Below, piece by piece: positions 4,396-45,826 of a stretch of 64,000 nt of DNA; the first letter of the stretch is position 1, and every line of letters begins with the position of its first letter. Source of the stretch: Enteroscipio rubneri. Lineage in GTDB: Bacteria > Actinomycetota > Coriobacteriia > Coriobacteriales > Eggerthellaceae. Made by a program: the position numbers and the translations under genes. The notes below the pieces were generated by a model. It searched no databases and was not told the origin of the DNA. It worked only from the letters and a program-made list of their open reading frames with translations. Location of the stretch: contig NZ_PPEK01000007.1 of assembly GCF_002899715.1 (NCBI RefSeq), positions 1 to 64,000 of the forward strand. Reading direction: 5' to 3'.

Positions 4396-5732
4396 TGTCT
4401 CACGTTGCACTATGCGCCGATATGGCGTGCCTGCAGCATCCGGAAACGCTCGGGCTTGCGGGCGAGAACCTTGCGGCGCAGGAGTGGCTGCGCTTGTTTG
4501 CAACGGCGACGGAGGCCCGCAGGTTCTTGCGCGACGATCGTTCGGTGGATGAAGTGTGGATTGCGTCCTGCGATGATGTCGCCCCTATCAACCTGGCGGC
4601 CACGCTGAAGCGCGATCGGGTGGATCGGCGCGTGTGCCTCGTGGCGTTCGAGGGAACGGGGTCGCTCAAGAGCCGTGCTTCGGCTGCCGGCATCGACGCC
4701 TCGCTTACACGCCAGGCGTTCCTTGCCCGTTACGCGCAACGTAAGCGGTCTGCGCTCGATGCACGTTGCGAGCATGAAGCGCGTGCCCGGGAACAAGCGC
4801 TGGCAAGTCTCGACGGCCCGTCCGGCACGGTCATGGCGCCGCCGGCGAAGGAGGTCCCGCCGCGCGTCTGGTCGGCGGCGTGCGCGGCATCGGAGCAGGA
4901 GGCGAGCGGCGTTTGCAAGCGAGCAGGCTTTCTCATGCCCATTGTAAGCGGCAGTGGCGGAGCCGGGAAGAGCACCGTGTCAGCTTTAAGTGCGCTCCTG
5001 TGCCAGCGCCTCGGCTATCGTACGCTCTTGCTCGATTTCGATCTGCAGTTCGGCGATATGCCCGATCTGCTCGGCGTGGAGCGTCCTCCGACGGTCGACG
5101 AAGTGCTGTCGACGCCCGCACGCATCGAGCACCTTGCTCCCGAGGGCGATCTTCCAGCGCTGCTGGCTGCCCCGAGGCGGCTTGAGCAGTCCGAAGCCGT
5201 GGCCGGGCATGCGTCGGCGCTGCTCGATTGGCTGCTCCCGCGTTTCGACGTGGTCGTCTGTAACACGGGGGCTTCGTGGGCCGAGCAGCATGCCGTCCTG
5301 CTCGAGCGCAGCTCGAAGGCACTGTTCCTCATCGATCAGCGCGCCTCCTCTTTGCGGGCGTGCCGCCACGCTCTCGACCTCTGCGCTCGATGCGGCATCG
5401 CAACGGGCCCGTTCTCGTTTGCAGTGAATCGATGTGCGAAAAACGCTCTGTTCACCTCTATCGACGTCTCGTGCGCTTTGCGAGGGGCTCCTGTTGTCGA
5501 GCTTGCTGAAGGCGGTCGGGAGGTCGAGGAGCTTTTGGGAATGGGGCTTCCGAAGGAGCTTTTGTCGTCGCGCAATGCATTGTGCGGGAGCCTCGAGACC
5601 CTGCTGCGCGACATGCTTCCGAGCGCGGGCGCATCGCCCTCGGCCGCAGAGCCTGCGCCGCGCAGGACAGGTCTGGGATTGCGAAGAGGCAAGCGTCCGC
5701 GCAGGAGGGGAAGGGAGGCGGCATGTCTTTGA
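4392..5732 (+). CDS. tadZ: TadZ/CpaE-like pilus-localising ATPase
   Basis: A 446-residue protein with an N-terminal receiver-like region (about 1-110) and a MinD/ParA-type ATPase domain. The deviant Walker A SGSGGAGKST (K193) is followed by LLLDFDLQFGDMPDLLGV, the form typical of CpaE/TadZ. These proteins place the Tad machinery at a cell pole and recruit the other subunits. The C-terminus is Arg-rich. The start at 4392 overlaps the cpaB stop by 4 bp and the gene overlaps tadA by 10 bp, so translation is probably coupled. Confidence 0.85.
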   Translation: MMSHVALCADMACLQHPETLGLAGENLAAQEWLRLFATATEARRFLRDDRSVDEVWIASCDDVAPINLAATLKRDRVDRRVCLVAFEGTGSLKSRASAAGIDASLTRQAFLARYAQRKRSALDARCEHEARAREQALASLDGPSGTVMAPPAKEVPPRVWSAACAASEQEASGVCKRAGFLMPIVSGSGGAGKSTVSALSALLCQRLGYRTLLLDFDLQFGDMPDLLGVERPPTVDEVLSTPARIEHLAPEGDLPALLAAPRRLEQSEAVAGHASALLDWLLPRFDVVVCNTGASWAEQHAVLLERSSKALFLIDQRASSLRACRHALDLCARCGIATGPFSFAVNRCAKNALFTSIDVSCALRGAPVVELAEGGREVEELLGMGLPKELLSSRNALCGSLETLLRDMLPSAGASPSAAEPAPRRTGLGLRRGKRPRRRGREAACL

Positions 5733-21772: not shown

Positions 21773-22143
21773 GCGCCGCTCTCCCCCCGGTATCGCCCAG
21801 CTGCCACCCCGTTCGATTTTATAGTATACCGGAGTACTGATAGTTGGAAACCCGCATCGTCCTCTCAGGTCCCCAACAGCCGAAATCGGAAAATCATTGA
21901 CATTCAATGAGGGTGTTTCCGCTCGGCGTGCGCCTTCCATTGTATCCCACCGATGCGCGTTCGGCATCCGCCCGCATAGGCTGGAACCTGCACTCGTTGG
22001 CACGCCGCCGCCAAGCGCGCACCATCGGCGCCGACGCGTACGGTTGCCCTCTGGATGCACGCGCCGGCGGCATCGGCGAGCGCGTCGCCGCCTCCTTCTG
22101 CAGGACGCGGTGAACGATGGAAGAGGAGAAGGAGGATGGTTCT
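21773..22143. promoter_or_regulatory. Divergent control region of the LuxR regulator and molybdoenzyme
   Basis: The 371-bp spacer has no convincing gene. On the minus strand TATACT (21828-21823) is a near-consensus -10 for the LuxR gene. A perfect 7-bp dyad with a 3-bp spacer, TCATTGACATTCAATGA, lies at 21894-21910 and overlaps a TTGACA (21897-21902) facing the molybdoenzyme; it is a candidate LuxR-type operator. AAGGAGG at 22129-22135 is the ribosome site for the start at 22144. Confidence 0.55.
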
Positions 22144-25100
22144 ATGGCTATCACCGATCTGTCGAGAAGGCGCTTCACGCAGCTGGCCGGCCTGACCGGC
22201 GCTGCGGCGCTCGCGGGGCTCGGGCTGCCGGACGCTGCTGAGGCCGCCGAGCAGGCGCCCGTCGATCCGGAGTTCCCGGTGTCGGGCCGCGGCCGCAAGC
22301 TGGAGGCTGCCTACGACCCGAATACGGACGAGATTAAGGTTAACGACGAGGTCATCGTGCGCTACAGCAATTGCGTGGGCTGTTACGCCATGTGCGGCGT
22401 GCGCTTGAAACTCGATCGCGACTCGCGCGAGATCCTCGCGCAGGGAGGCAACCCCTACAACCCGTGCAACGCCTATCCCGTGCTGCCGTTCGACGAGCCG
22501 CTCACGGAGGCCTACCGCACCATGACGCAATCGCCTACGAAGCAGACCGGTGCGGCCACCTGTTGCGGCCGCTCGCTCGGCGCGCTCGATGTGTACTTGA
22601 ATTCGTACCGAATCACCACGCCGCTCAAGCGTGCGGGCAAGCGTGGCGAGGGTAAGTGGGAGCCCATCAGCTGGGACCAGCTCATTGAGGAGACGGTGGA
22701 GGGCGGCAAGCTGTTCGCACACCTCGGCGAGGATCGCGAGATCGAGGGCTTCCGCGCCGTGCGCGACTTCGATACGCCGCTCGTGCCCGACGCTCCCGAG
22801 TTCGGCTCGAAGGCGAACGGCCTCATCTACTGCGGCGGCCGCACCGACGGTCGCGGGCAGACGTCCACGCGTTTCCTCAGCATGTACGGCAGCTCGAACA
22901 AGTACTCGCACCACTCGTCGTGCTACGGCGCGAAGGGTGTGTACCCCTACCAGTCGGGCGACGGCGATGACCTCGGTATCGACGCTGAGAATAACGAATA
23001 CGCCATCTGGATGGGCACGTTTCCCGGCGCCAACGGCGGCAGCGTGATGAGTGATCTGAAGCGCGTGGCCGCCACCATCGAGAACAAACAGGCCAAGATC
23101 GTGGTGTTCGACCCGAATCTGGGCAACGGCGTGGTCACTCCGGCGCAGGACAACGCCGTGTGGTACCCCATCAAGCCGGCGACGAACTCGGCGCTCACCA
23201 TGGGCATGATCCGCTGGATCATCGACAACGAGAAGTACAACGAGGGCTTTATGTGCGCCCCGAACCTGCCCCAAGCTATCAAGCTGGGCTTCAACGCGTG
23301 CACGAACGCCACGCACCTCGTGATCGTGGACGAGGCGCACCCGAACTATCGCCACATGATGCATCCCGAGGATGCGGGCCTTACGCCCTCTTCGGCCGAG
23401 AACGCCTTCGAGGATCAGTACGTGTGCATCGACGCCGCCACGCAGCAGCCGGCGGTGTCGCTCGACTGCGACAAGGGGCTCATGGAGTGGGAAGGCGAGG
23501 TCAACGGCGTGAAGGTGCGCACGGCCTACCTGTTCCTCAAGGACAGCGCGAACGAGCATACCATCGAGGAGTACTCCGAGATTTGCGGCGTGCCTGTCGA
23601 CGTCATCGAGGAGGTTGCGAGCGAGTTCGTGGCTCACGGCACGAAGTCGTCCGTCAACGGCGCGGGCGGCGTCACGTCCGCGAACGGCACGGATGCCACG
23701 AGCTGTTACTCGACGCTGGCCGGTCTCACGGGCGCCATCTGCATGAAGGGCAGCATCATCGCCACGTTCGTGGGCGTGACCGGCCCCGGCAACGGCGAGC
23801 GCTACCTGCTGAGCAAGGCCGAGGGTATGCCGAAGGACAAGCCCGACGCGCGCGTCGACCGCACCGGGTTCGCCTGGGAGGATACGAGCGAGTACAAGCG
23901 CCGCACGGCCGCCGGCGAGAAGGACCCGAAGCCGCTGCTGCCGTGGTATCCGGGCGGCGTGGGCACGTCGGACAACCAGATGGTGCTTTCGCTGGCCAAC
24001 GGCTACCCGCACAAAGCGAAGATCCTGCTCACGTGGCAGTGCAACCCCATCAAGGCCACGCCGGGCGCCCAGCGCGAAGAGGTCATGGCGGCGTTTAAAG
24101 ACCCCGATATCATCCCCTTGGCCATCTGCTCCGACGTGGTGGAGGGTACGTTCGCCCATATGGCGGACTACATCGTGCCCGACACCATGTACCGCGAACA
24201 CTTCGGCATCTCCCAGCACGCGGCCTGGTGGCCCCACAAGGGCAACTTCCTGCAGTGGCCCATGGTGGAGCCGAAGTCGATGAAGCTGGATGACGGGCGC
24301 CACGCCAGCTTCGATGTGTACCTCTGCGACGTGGGCCGCAAGCTGGGCCTGCCCGGCTACGGCGATGAGGCGCTGTTGTCCGCCACGGGCGAGAAGCTTC
24401 CGTTCAACGACGCGTGCGACTACTACGTGAAGGCGCTCGCGAACGTGGCGTACGAGGACGGTGTCATCGAGGATCTCTCCGACGAGGAGATACGGATGCA
24501 GGCGCTCGACACGCTACCCGAAGCGTGGAAGAAGGCCGTGACGCCCGAGGAGTGGTCGAAGGTGCAGCGCCTGCTCAGCCGCGGGTGCCGCACGTGGCCC
24601 GAGGCCGACACGTGGGACGATCAGGGTCGCCAGACCTACGCCGGCGCCTACATGGTGAACTTCTACTCCGAAGAGCGCGGCTCGGTGAGAAACCACTACA
24701 CCGGTAAGTTCTACGAGGGCGCCCTCGGCTGGCATGCTGAGACGTTCAGCGATGGCACGCCCATCGCTGACGTGTACTCGCGCGAGGAGTACCCCTTCGG
24801 CGCCGCCAGCCACAAGCCGTACTTCCGCTGTGTCACCATGCTGTCCGATAGCGCGCTTCTGCGCGAGCTCTCGCCGCACAACTACCTGGAGATCAACATC
24901 GAGGATGCGCGCGAGCTGGGCATCAAGGATGGCGACACGGTGCAGGCGATAAACCCCTCCGGCGACGTTATGGAGGGCGTGGCCATGCTGCGCGGCGGCA
25001 CGGCGCGCGGGAACATTGGCATCTCATTCGGCTACACGCAGGACGCCTACGGCTCCACCGACCTGACGGTGGGCGACGAGACGGTACCGGGCAACCCGGC

Positions 25101-25239
25101 CATCAACACTGGCGTCCAGCTGTGCCAGATGCTCGACCCCCAGGTCGGAGAAGGCGCTATCTTCGCCTTTTCCGACCCCGAGGCGTCCACCCCGGGCCGC
25201 AACGGCGGCATGTTCAAATTGGTGGTTCCGACGGCTTGA
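22144..25239 (+). CDS. Tat-exported molybdopterin oxidoreductase catalytic subunit (DMSO reductase family)
   Basis: A 1031-residue enzyme with a Tat signal (SRRRFTQLAGLTGAAALAG, about 8-27). An N-terminal [4Fe-4S] site is intact: C77-x2-C80-x3-C84-x23-C108. C260 in HHSSCYGAKG is the likely molybdenum ligand. Length and Fe-S pattern resemble tetrathionate, arsenate and catechol-dehydroxylating members, so the substrate is open. It would reduce a terminal acceptor outside the membrane, taking electrons from the ferredoxin subunit at 25416. The ATG at 22144 has AAGGAGG eight bases before; the upstream in-frame start is disfavoured because it would bury the Tat motif. Confidence 0.9.
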   Translation: MAITDLSRRRFTQLAGLTGAAALAGLGLPDAAEAAEQAPVDPEFPVSGRGRKLEAAYDPNTDEIKVNDEVIVRYSNCVGCYAMCGVRLKLDRDSREILAQGGNPYNPCNAYPVLPFDEPLTEAYRTMTQSPTKQTGAATCCGRSLGALDVYLNSYRITTPLKRAGKRGEGKWEPISWDQLIEETVEGGKLFAHLGEDREIEGFRAVRDFDTPLVPDAPEFGSKANGLIYCGGRTDGRGQTSTRFLSMYGSSNKYSHHSSCYGAKGVYPYQSGDGDDLGIDAENNEYAIWMGTFPGANGGSVMSDLKRVAATIENKQAKIVVFDPNLGNGVVTPAQDNAVWYPIKPATNSALTMGMIRWIIDNEKYNEGFMCAPNLPQAIKLGFNACTNATHLVIVDEAHPNYRHMMHPEDAGLTPSSAENAFEDQYVCIDAATQQPAVSLDCDKGLMEWEGEVNGVKVRTAYLFLKDSANEHTIEEYSEICGVPVDVIEEVASEFVAHGTKSSVNGAGGVTSANGTDATSCYSTLAGLTGAICMKGSIIATFVGVTGPGNGERYLLSKAEGMPKDKPDARVDRTGFAWEDTSEYKRRTAAGEKDPKPLLPWYPGGVGTSDNQMVLSLANGYPHKAKILLTWQCNPIKATPGAQREEVMAAFKDPDIIPLAICSDVVEGTFAHMADYIVPDTMYREHFGISQHAAWWPHKGNFLQWPMVEPKSMKLDDGRHASFDVYLCDVGRKLGLPGYGDEALLSATGEKLPFNDACDYYVKALANVAYEDGVIEDLSDEEIRMQALDTLPEAWKKAVTPEEWSKVQRLLSRGCRTWPEADTWDDQGRQTYAGAYMVNFYSEERGSVRNHYTGKFYEGALGWHAETFSDGTPIADVYSREEYPFGAASHKPYFRCVTMLSDSALLRELSPHNYLEINIEDARELGIKDGDTVQAINPSGDVMEGVAMLRGGTARGNIGISFGYTQDAYGSTDLTVGDETVPGNPAINTGVQLCQMLDPQVGEGAIFAFSDPEASTPGRNGGMFKLVVPTA

Positions 25240-25387
25240 CGGCCGTCGGAACCGGTCGACGCTGCGGCTTCCCGTGGCACCCGACCTCGTGGCGAGGCCG
25301 AGGACTCGCGTATGCAAGTACGCTTCGCCCTCGCCCTCCCCACGATCTTGGGCACCACGGGAAACCCTCGCTGACTTTGCTGGACCT
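25224..25387 (+). repeat. Structured intergenic repeat, copy A
   Basis: Hairpin 1 is a perfect 12-bp stem (25224-25235 with 25242-25253) spanning the stop codon of the reductase gene. Conserved TCGACGCTGCGGCTT follows (25256-25270), then hairpin 2 with outer arms from CCCGTGG (25271-25277) to CCACGGG (25355-25361). Inside are GGCGAGG/CCTCGCC and the stem GCGTA/TACGC. Conserved AAACCCTCGCTGACTTT (25362-25378) and TGGACCT (25381-25387) close it. It shares these conserved blocks with copy B at 44539, while arm sequences differ. Confidence 0.85.
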
Positions 25388-25415
25388 ACGAGATGACAAG
25401 AATAGAGGGTGAACC

Positions 25416-26060
25416 ATGCAAAGAGCTGAGACGAAATCGGGCAAACGGCCGTTCATGCTGGTGGACGTGTCGCTGTGCATCGGGTGTCACGCGTGTGTGA
25501 ACGCGTGCAAGTTCGAAAACGAGCTGGAGATCAAGCAGTTCAACACGTGGATCGAGACGTGGGATGCGGGCGAGTACCCCAACGTGGTGCGGGCGAACGT
25601 GCCGCACCTGTGCAACCACTGCGATGACGCGCCGTGCCTGGCGGTATGCCCCACGGGCGCCACGTACCGCAACGACGACGGCCTCATCCTCGTGGATCAG
25701 GAGAAGTGTATCGGCTGCAAGTACTGCATGGCGGCCTGCCCCTTCTCCGTGCGCTGGCAGAACGACGCCGGCGAGGTGGAGAAGTGCACGTTCTGCGTGA
25801 ACCGCACGTCGGCCGGGCTGCTTCCGGCGTGCGCGGGCAACTGTCCCACGCATGCGCGCCTGTTCGGCGATCTGAACGACCCGAACAGCGAGGTGGCGAA
25901 GAAGGTGGCCGAGCTGGGCGCCGAGAGCATGCTGCCCGAGCTGGGCATCGGCACGAACACGTGCTACGTGGGCCTGGCGGAGACGAATGCGCTGCCGAAG
26001 TCGTCGTCGGTGCTGCACGGCGGCCGCGTGGCCGTCAAACTCGAAGAGATGGGAGCGTGA
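25416..26060 (+). CDS. Ferredoxin-like electron-transfer subunit (DmsB/NrfC/TtrB type)
   Basis: A 214-residue protein with four [4Fe-4S] cysteine groups: CIGCHACVNAC, CNHCDDAPCLAVCP, CIGCKYCMAACP and CTFCVN...CAGNCPTHA. It passes electrons between the NrfD-type membrane subunit and the catalytic subunit. No signal peptide is present; it is presumably exported by piggy-back with the Tat substrate. The structured repeat separates it from the catalytic gene, an unusual gap of 176 bp within the operon. Confidence 0.92.
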   Translation: MQRAETKSGKRPFMLVDVSLCIGCHACVNACKFENELEIKQFNTWIETWDAGEYPNVVRANVPHLCNHCDDAPCLAVCPTGATYRNDDGLILVDQEKCIGCKYCMAACPFSVRWQNDAGEVEKCTFCVNRTSAGLLPACAGNCPTHARLFGDLNDPNSEVAKKVAELGAESMLPELGIGTNTCYVGLAETNALPKSSSVLHGGRVAVKLEEMGA

Positions 26061-44040: not shown

Positions 44041-44535
44041 ATGCAATTCAAAGGAACCGCGCACCGCTACGGGCGCGACATCGATACCGACGTCATCATC
44101 CCGGCTCGCTACCTGACCACGTCCGATCCGGCCGAGCTGGCGAAGCACTGCCTCGAGGACCTCGACACGTCGTTCATCGAGCGCGTGCAACCCGGCGACA
44201 TCATCGTGGCCGACGAGAACTTCGGCTGCGGCTCGTCGCGCGAGCACGCGCCCATCGCCATCAAGGCGGCTGGCGTCGACGTGGTCATCGCCAAGAGCTT
44301 CGCGCGCATCTTCTACCGCAACTCCATCAACACGGGCCTCGCCATCATGGAGTGCCCCGAAGCGGTGGACGCCATCAGCCAGGGCGACGTGGTGAGCGTG
44401 GACGCCGACGCGGGCGTCATCGTGAACGAGACGACGGGCCAGACCTTCGAGGCTCAGCCGTTCCCTCCGTTCATCCGCGAGATCATCGAAGCTGGCGGCC
44501 TGATCAACCGCACGAAGGCGAAGATGGGGAAGTAA
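44041..44535 (+). CDS. leuD: 3-isopropylmalate dehydratase small subunit
   Basis: A 164-residue swivelling domain partner of LeuC. Diagnostic segments: YGRDIDTDVIIPARYL, ENFGCGSSREHAPIAIKAAG and SFARIFYRNSINTGLAIME. Length fits the short archaeal-type LeuD that pairs with the short LeuC. AGGAGGGAC precedes the ATG. Its stop is followed within four bases by the first hairpin of the structured repeat. Confidence 0.93.
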   Translation: MQFKGTAHRYGRDIDTDVIIPARYLTTSDPAELAKHCLEDLDTSFIERVQPGDIIVADENFGCGSSREHAPIAIKAAGVDVVIAKSFARIFYRNSINTGLAIMECPEAVDAISQGDVVSVDADAGVIVNETTGQTFEAQPFPPFIREIIEAGGLINRTKAKMGK

Positions 44536-44538
44536 GTT

Positions 44539-44699
44539 GTTCCGCCGTTCTACGAACGGCGGAACGGCTCGACGCTGCGGCTTTCTGAGGCAGCCCGCCT
44601 CGCGGCGAAGACAAAGACTCGCGTACTGAAGTACGCTTTTCCTTCGCCTTCCCCACGATCCGGGCTGCCTCAGAAACCCTCGCTGACTTTATTGGACCT
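44539..44699 (+). repeat. Structured intergenic repeat, copy B
   Basis: Hairpin 1 is a perfect 12-bp stem (44539-44550 with 44554-44565, loop TAC). TCGACGCTGCGGCTT (44569-44583) follows, then hairpin 2 with arms TTTCTGAGGCAGCCCG (44582-44597) and its perfect complement at 44661-44676. The inner part has GGCGAAG/CTTCGCC and the palindrome GCGTACTGAAGTACGC. AAACCCTCGCTGACTTT (44674-44690) and TGGACCT (44693-44699) match copy A. The arms differ from copy A but remain paired. Confidence 0.88.
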
Positions 44700-44716
44700 G
44701 CAAAGTGAGGAAAAAC

Positions 44717-45826
44717 ATGGCCAAAACCTACAACATCTGCCTGCTTCCCGGCGACGGCATCGGCCCCGAGATCATCGCCGAGGGCGTCAAGGTGCTGGAC
44801 GCGGTGGGCGTGAAGTACGACACGGCGTTCGCCTACACCGAGGCGCTGCTGGGCGGGTGCGCCATCGACGCGACGGGAACCGCGCTGCCGGACGAGACGC
44901 TGCACGTAGCCGAAGCCTCCGACGCCGTGCTGCTGGCGGCCGTCGGCGGCCCGAAGTGGGACACCACGGATCCGGCGAAGCCGCGTCCGGAGCAGGGTCT
45001 GCTGGGCATCCGCAAGGCACTGGGCCTGTACACGAACCTGCGCCCCGTGCAGATCTTCGCCGCGCTGGCCGACGCGTCCACGCTCAAGCCGGAGATCGTG
45101 GACGGCGTGGACATGATGATCGTGCGCGAGCTGACCGGCGGGTTGTACTTCGGTCGTCGCGAACGCTTCTACGACGAAGAGGGCTGCGGCACCCACGGCG
45201 CCGCCGGCCAGCGCGCTTACGACACGCTCGAGTACCGCGAGTACGAGGTCGAGCGCATCGCGCGCCAGGCGTTTGAGGCCGCGCGCAAGCGCCGCAACAA
45301 GGTGACGAGCGTCGACAAGGCGAACGTGCTGGAGACGAGCCGCATGTGGCGCGAGATCGTGCACCGCATCGGCGCGGAGGAGTACCCCGACGTGGAACTC
45401 GAGGACCTGCTCGTGGACAACACGGCCATGCAGCTCATCAGCCGCCCCGTCGATTTCGACGTGGTGGTGACCGAGAACATGTTCGGCGACATCCTGTCCG
45501 ACGAAGCCGCCCAGATCACCGGCTCGCTCGGCATGCTGGCCAGCGCCAGCCTCGGCGACGGCACGGCGCTCTACGAGCCCAGCCACGGCAGCGCGCCCGA
45601 CATCGCGGGGAAGGGCATCGCGAACCCGCTCGCGCAGATCCTGTCCGTCGAGATGATGCTGCGCTACAGCTTCAACCTGGGTGAGGCCGCCGACGACATC
45701 CGCCGCGCGGTGACCGCCGTGCTCGACGAGGGCTGGCGCACCGGCGACATCAAGCAGGCCGACACCCCCGCCGACAAGGTGGTCGGTACCGTTCAGATGG
45801 GCGACCTCGTGGTGGCGCACCTGTAG
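44717..45826 (+). CDS. leuB: 3-isopropylmalate dehydrogenase
   Basis: A 369-residue NAD-dependent dehydrogenase that oxidises and decarboxylates 3-isopropylmalate. Opening is [19 protein letters not shown], the substrate loop [16 protein letters not shown], metal-binding [18 protein letters not shown] and [19 protein letters not shown]. The ATG at 44717 follows GAGGAAAAAC; the GTG at 44705 is less likely. Third gene of the leu operon, separated from leuD by the structured repeat. Confidence 0.95.

Follow-up and report, generated by a model that had tools for sequence, protein, structure and literature searches.

A palindromic sequence in a molybdoenzyme operon of Enteroscipio rubneri (copy A) has a relative in a second operon, between leuD- and leuB-like genes (copy B). 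Both lie within the 64,000-nucleotide stretch of DNA that was analysed here and is called the window in the following. A reading made from the sequence alone had proposed that the structure of the two copies is under selection, either as an RNA element or as palindromic mobile DNA. The question is therefore what kind of element the two copies represent, and on which molecule selection acts.

Architecture of the two copies and size of the family

The whole unit comprises about 165 nt (Table 1). Hairpin 1 takes up about 28 nt; a spacer, mostly 5-6 nt long, separates it from a core of about 117 nt, behind which lies a tail of roughly 13-21 nt. The core is bounded by GACGCTGCGG and CCCTCGCTGAC and contains the long hairpin 2. 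The shared blocks described in the sequence-only reading are indeed identical: TCGACGCTGCGGCTT occupies 25256-25270 in A and 44569-44583 in B, and AAACCCTCGCTGACTTT starts at 25362 in A and at 44674 in B. Likewise, the outer as well as the inner arms differ between the copies and still pair within each of them, as had been claimed. The extent given to the unit was too small, since it also takes in a separate near-perfect hairpin 1 on the 5' side of the conserved block and, at the other end, a tail reaching to about 25396 in A and 44700 in B. Both copies had also been placed directly after a stop codon; this is correct for copy B, which follows a native TAA, but not for copy A, where the TGA is situated in the loop of hairpin 1. 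The predicted fold of copy A has an energy of -96.6 kcal/mol compared with a mean of -64.1 for dinucleotide shuffles (z -7.3), that of copy B -82.3 kcal/mol compared with -50.0 (z -8.4), and for either copy 0 of 200 shuffles were as good.

Table 1. Positions in the window of the two copies, their parts and the adjacent genes
Feature	Position	Strand	Basis or remark
Copy A, hairpin 1	25224..25253		12-bp perfect stem, 6-nt loop holding TGA 25237-25239
Copy A, stop codon of the molybdoenzyme gene	25237..25239	+	within the hairpin-1 loop, away from the native stop position; empty site in G001 ends ...IVKA* ahead of the next gene
Copy A, core (hairpin 2)	25258..25375	- (best-folding strand)	covariance model R1 match 25255-25378, minus strand, 114.5 bits
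Copy A, tail	25376..25396		end estimated via the empty site
Gene upstream of A, molybdopterin oxidoreductase	22117..25239	+	Pfam PF00384, PF01568
Gene downstream of A, 4Fe-4S ferredoxin-type subunit	25416..26060	+	Pfam PF13247
Copy B, hairpin 1	44539..44565		12-bp perfect stem, 3-nt loop
Copy B, core (hairpin 2)	44571..44687	- (best-folding strand)	covariance model R1 match 44568-44690, minus strand, 122.6 bits
Copy B, tail	44688..44700		end approximate
Gene upstream of B, small subunit of an aconitase-family hydratase (leuD-like)	44041..44535	+	Pfam PF00694; native stop TAA 44533-44535
Gene downstream of B, isocitrate/isopropylmalate dehydrogenase (leuB-like)	44717..45826	+	Pfam PF00180

A and B are two members of one large dispersed repeat family. 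Searches with a covariance model built from 60 sequences, whose counts are lower bounds because the large searches were strictly filtered and the E-values of the model are rough, gave 33 copies in the E. rubneri genome, 48 full-length copies in one complete Gordonibacter chromosome (G058), and members in 44 of 61 Eggerthellaceae genomes. For the class Coriobacteriia the figure is 131 of 300 genomes, with carriers from other families of the order among them. The further copies in relatives which the sequence-only reading had suggested looking for are thus numerous, with tens per genome in many Eggerthellaceae and related gut bacteria. The copy number is uneven, with 3, 33 and 41 copies in related genomes and 5 versus 29 inside one genus. 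Scanning the E. rubneri genome with a single motif gave six true copies, A and B among them, and one chance match. A gapped motif was found in at least 118 stretches of genome contigs, mostly from Eggerthellaceae and other Coriobacteriia; the matches listed come from Gordonibacter, Adlercreutzia, Eggerthella, Paraeggerthella, Slackia, Ellagibacter and others, and also include a minority of unrelated chance matches. The gapped motif had no match in viral contigs, and viral carriage is unsupported. Rfam gave no match at A or B in the window at the gathering score; the matches of copy A were all sub-threshold.

Selection on the fold and the strand that carries it

In the 60-sequence alignment 27 of the 33 base pairs show two-sided change. 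Pairing is possible in 94.1% of the alignment cells, compared with 68.8% in column shuffles, which leave the relatedness of the sequences in place, and with at most 50% when the partners were slid, a control which removes relatedness. Covariation, which had been proposed as a check, exceeds both controls by far. Compensation is also found at the orthologous copy-A site, where the apical stem GCGTA/TACGC of E. rubneri is GCATA/TATGC in genome G048. Selection on structure is therefore borne out by the covariation in the alignment and by the compensation at this site. These data show that evolution keeps the folded shape of the element and not its sequence; the arms change fast and yet stay self-complementary. 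Strong intergenic covariation in these bacteria need not imply a riboswitch.

The complement of the displayed strand folds better than the displayed strand itself in 106 of 113 cores, with a mean gain of 13.6 kcal/mol, and flanking sequences show no such bias (59 of 112). The paired positions of the displayed strand include 126 C·A, each equivalent to a G·U in the complement, as against 40 G·T; this count disregards two positions at which the complement has a conserved tandem UG/GU. In the complement alignment hairpin 2 has 108 G·U against 34 A·C in 60 related sequences; counted per sequence, 41 of these related sequences lean one way and 9 the opposite way. In hairpin 1 the wobble asymmetry is small (30 versus 20). 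Where the displayed strand has a conserved T·C/C·T loop, the complement forms a tandem G·A; the apical loops seen most often in the complement read C(UUCG)G or C(UUUG)G. Taken together, the wobble asymmetry, the tandem G·A, the better folding and the apical loops place the selected fold of hairpin 2 on the complement strand. The strand displayed in the sequence-only reading is the poorer folder.

G·U wobbles, tandem G·A and loops of this kind are typical of folded RNA, and they would suit a family of small antisense RNAs transcribed from this strand and acting, once folded, in cis or in trans. We regard this as improbable: on the would-be promoter side no sequence is conserved, the tails vary between subgroups, copy B sits in a tight operon, and there is no Rfam match. 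A riboswitch or operon-specific leader RNA was rejected, as the gene classes vary across the loci and the complement folds better than the mRNA strand.

Insertion sites, placement and modules

At the B junction of several relatives (L197, L201, L202 and L203) leuB begins a few nucleotides past the leuD stop and the element is absent, and in Paraeggerthella (G008 and G070) this junction holds a relic with hairpin 1 and without hairpin 2. The element-free A junction of G001 reads ...ATCGTTAAAGCATAGGGGAGGGTGAATAATG, and that of E. rubneri reads ...TTGGTG, followed by the element and then by CAAGAATAGAGGGTGAACCATG. This comparison places the entry about 6 nt ahead of the native stop, with the hairpin-1 loop now giving TGA; the final residues KA of the molybdoenzyme are replaced by VPTA. 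The net length difference is about 169 nt at A and about 176 nt at B. G048 carries copy A at the identical site and lacks copy B. Comparing copy A with the empty site, at the species level, we saw neither terminal inverted repeats nor a target-site duplication. Judged from such comparisons between species, the copies are insertions, with empty sites known for both A and B. The empty sites support palindromic mobile DNA, the second alternative of the sequence-only reading.

Genes at the loci were called by a codon-usage gene finder trained on the loci. These had been selected for carrying the element, except for the complete set of the Gordonibacter chromosome G058, which serves as an unbiased check. 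Among intergenic copies with a called upstream gene, this gene is on the same strand in 87 of 92. The stop codon is located 30-43 nt before the core, that is, just ahead of hairpin 1, in about 60 of the 87, and exactly 19 nt before the core, inside the hairpin-1 loop, in six copies. On the G058 chromosome the upstream gene is on the same strand in 35 of 38 cases, and the same distance clusters appear. A preference for a certain stop codon as target was discarded: TAG, TAA and TGA occur 31, 21 and 10 times, compared with 201, 131 and 105 in the background, with no clear difference. The genes at the loci differ and the copies follow many unrelated genes. The position after a stop codon is a rule of the whole family and nothing peculiar to these operons. 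The idea of an RNA element of the molybdoenzyme operon is unsupported, given the unrelated upstream genes, the patchy copies and a best-folding strand that is antisense to the upstream gene.

Some copies are located within genes. On G058 these are 8 of the 48 full-length copies, all on the gene strand and in a single frame (8 of 8); of the 9 in-gene copies in the broader set, 8 agree in their frame, two copies being common to both sets. Open frames were rejected as the source of this bias, as in intergenic copies the other frames are open about as often. Some annotated protein C-termini are element sequence. The leucyl-tRNA synthetase genes of three genomes (L120, L153 and L140) contain a translated copy at nearly the same point, following RSEGAE.DF; the peptide encoded by the element there would read DAAAF...ETLADS.

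The orientation follows the replichore in 44 of the 48 Gordonibacter copies, the replichores being inferred from the orientation switch itself. Replication direction was rejected as the primary cause: the gene seems primary, because three discordant copies (in G001, G058 and G073) follow a head-on gene. Four copies are reversed relative to the neighbouring genes. Orientation switches at two chromosome points in G058, G001, G135, G153 and G250, as expected if the element follows co-oriented genes, and could act as a replichore marker.

The same junctions are occupied across several genera. The junction ahead of a gene start resembling MKVSLKWL, probably that of pheS-pheT, has very different copies in several genera (L112, L127, L180 and L092); it is either an old site or a recurrent target. 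In L046 and L155, which come from different genera, one and the same gene has a copy on either side, and in L174 only the first copy is present. This first copy follows a T run (AGGACAGGTCTTTTTTT), which resembles the end of a leader terminator.

The near-fixed position behind stop codons on the gene strand, the junctions shared by several genera and a hairpin 1 that is near-perfect in almost all copies speak for a cis-acting mRNA element, in which hairpin 1 after the stop and hairpin 2 behind it would make the message of the upstream gene more stable, act as a barrier to exonucleases or Rho, or cause the genes of an operon to be expressed unequally. However, the displayed strand, which is the mRNA strand, has the C·A mismatches and T·C loops and folds worse than the complement, the element is patchy among relatives, some copies are in open frames and four are reversed. 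We consider this explanation rather unlikely.

The two hairpins vary separately. Gordonibacter cores which are at least 95% identical at unrelated loci have hairpins 1 that are only 72% identical, the baseline for unrelated cores being 63-67%, and their tails often differ. At orthologous sites hairpin 1 is conserved sometimes better and sometimes worse than the core. Cores that are almost the same thus have unlike hairpins 1. Hairpin 1 is decoupled from the core of hairpin 2, be it through exchange, separate spread or refitting. An independent existence of hairpin 1 as a REP was rejected, with one core-less hairpin of the GTTCCG type against 61 with a core. Seven short forms in G058 (L235-L241) have kept hairpin 1 and both core ends and have lost hairpin 2, as expected from palindrome deletion; two of them, L237 and L240, are within open frames.

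In L119/L193 one arm of hairpin 1 is the host coding end VYTPI*, as seen from the element-free relative L106, and both arms change together; in L034 the arm is the host sequence VEEL*. Such host-derived arms with matching opposite arms (also in L032) would be explained if the arms were complementary without any functional selection, purely through self-conversion of the palindrome by template switching, as proposed for nematomorph mitochondria; repeat conversion has a precedent there (PMC6649704). Conversion would not keep the conserved mismatched positions, and because it treats both strands alike it leaves the asymmetry of 108 versus 34 in hairpin 2 unexplained. We therefore hold it to be very unlikely.

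Several variants were observed besides. L154 has, near 4440 on the minus strand of the match, a hairpin 1 directly behind an apparent tRNA 3' end and with a T run after it, so that a terminator may serve as hairpin 1. Hairpin 2 of L049, L059 and L064 is enlarged by a block of about 60-80 nt that itself forms hairpins (CTGATCAGC...GGGCGCGCCCTC...CAGTCC.CAGGACTGTT), possibly a second repeat inserted into the first. Nested elements are present near the apical loop in L068 (also L086) and in the outer stem in L091 and L167. In genome G012 repeats such as CGTCATTGCGGGCTTGACCCGCAATC, which resemble CGTC-tagged REPs, are found just downstream of the element (L052 and L054; also L025).

Possible mode of spread and comparison with known systems

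We consider it reasonably likely that copies A and B represent a mobile element of the Coriobacteriia which is palindromic, dispersed and non-autonomous and which behaves much as REPs and RPEs do. The folded complement strand of the core would be the substrate of a mobilising enzyme, as single-stranded DNA or, less likely, as RNA, and the enzyme would copy or exchange the core between sites. Copies would survive where they are least harmful, either close to a stop codon or, when read in frame, within protein loops that tolerate them, and selection on the complement-strand fold would keep the arms complementary, perhaps together with arm-to-arm conversion. Several points run counter to the mobile-element reading: no mobilising enzyme was found among the Y1 transposases, reverse transcriptases and integron integrases examined, no target-site duplication was seen, the insertions are deduced from comparisons between species, compensation this strong may signal a host function, and the copies are more sharply placed at stop codons than mere tolerance would lead one to expect. 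For the host, the element is probably nearly neutral; an operon-specific regulatory role is improbable, and a role in host mRNA is possible.

Two types of mobiliser were rejected for want of association with copy number. Y1_Tnp (RAYT) is absent from the high-copy genomes G000, G001, G053, G058, G060 and G018, and RVT_1, the mark of a reverse transcriptase, is absent from most high-copy genomes. A more specific proposal, which we regard as doubtful, is that the core of about 117 nt spreads on its own without a known transposase and acts through the folded transcription template strand; it would be delivered where translation ends, for example at an R-loop edge fixed by the terminating ribosome, and hairpin 1 would be exchanged or remade at each site, sometimes from host sequence.

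With this analysis the common gut Coriobacteriia gain a large family of mobile, structured palindromes that apparently has not been described before; the open-licence literature searched contained no relevant report about palindromes of Eggerthella or structured RNAs of Coriobacteriia, and a survey of REPs names no Coriobacteriia (PMC3733652). With its many natural compensatory changes the family is a good test case for distinguishing whether selection acts on the structure of DNA or of RNA or whether palindromes convert themselves, and the tie to the stop codon together with the decoupled hairpins makes the origin of REP-like elements at gene ends testable.

Among known systems the geometry of integron attC sites is close: structure is conserved over sequence, and the element lies behind a stop codon in gene orientation, with variable arms between conserved ends and a fold on the bottom or template strand. 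An integron-like recombination site used on its folded bottom strand is nevertheless largely refuted and most improbable. The attC boxes RYYYAAC and GTTRRRY are not found at the invariant ends, which read AGTCAGCGAGGG and CCGCAGCGTC and are without GTT/AAC boxes; the integron integrase TIGR02249 was above cut-off in 0 of 6 high-copy genomes; and the flanking genes are resident operon genes rather than cassettes. MITEs are likewise small, non-autonomous and present in many copies, but here, at the species level of comparison, neither mutual inverted repeats at the ends nor a target duplication was seen. The coding palindromes of nematomorph mitochondria (PMC6649704) are also inverted repeats in coding sequence with arms kept matched, template switching having been proposed, whereas the present palindromes form a dispersed family with conserved motifs.

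REPs, both the GTAG-tagged RAYT-associated and the CGTC-tagged ones, are dispersed palindromes that adjoin gene 3' ends and are sometimes located within genes (PMC3733652). The stop-codon placement of the present family is sharper than this precedent, yet still within it. REPs have 20-40 bp, one short stem and a defining tag, and CGTC REPs an unpaired CGTC tag, a stem of 8-9 bp, a loop of 4-5 nt and a CCA tail (PMC3733652). At the hairpins of the present family there is no conserved GTAG tag, and the core alone has about 117 nt compared with the 20-40 bp of a REP hairpin; the complement strand has CAGCGTC at the core edge, with stem lengths and a unit size that do not fit a CGTC REP. The unit of about 165 nt also differs from REPs: it has two hairpins, a core motif is conserved at either end of hairpin 2, covariation is strong, and one orientation is preferred. 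No dedicated transposase was found for it, and CGTC REPs lack one as well (PMC3733652). The Rickettsia palindromic elements (RPE), to which the family is likened by description and not by sequence, are palindromic, about 150 bp long and inserted in frame in unrelated genes (PMC10969869, PMC2635572); in contrast, most of the present copies are intergenic at stop codons and have two separately varying hairpins. The family lacks those defining features of RAYT-REPs and attC sites that were tested, and behaves in a REP/RPE-like manner.
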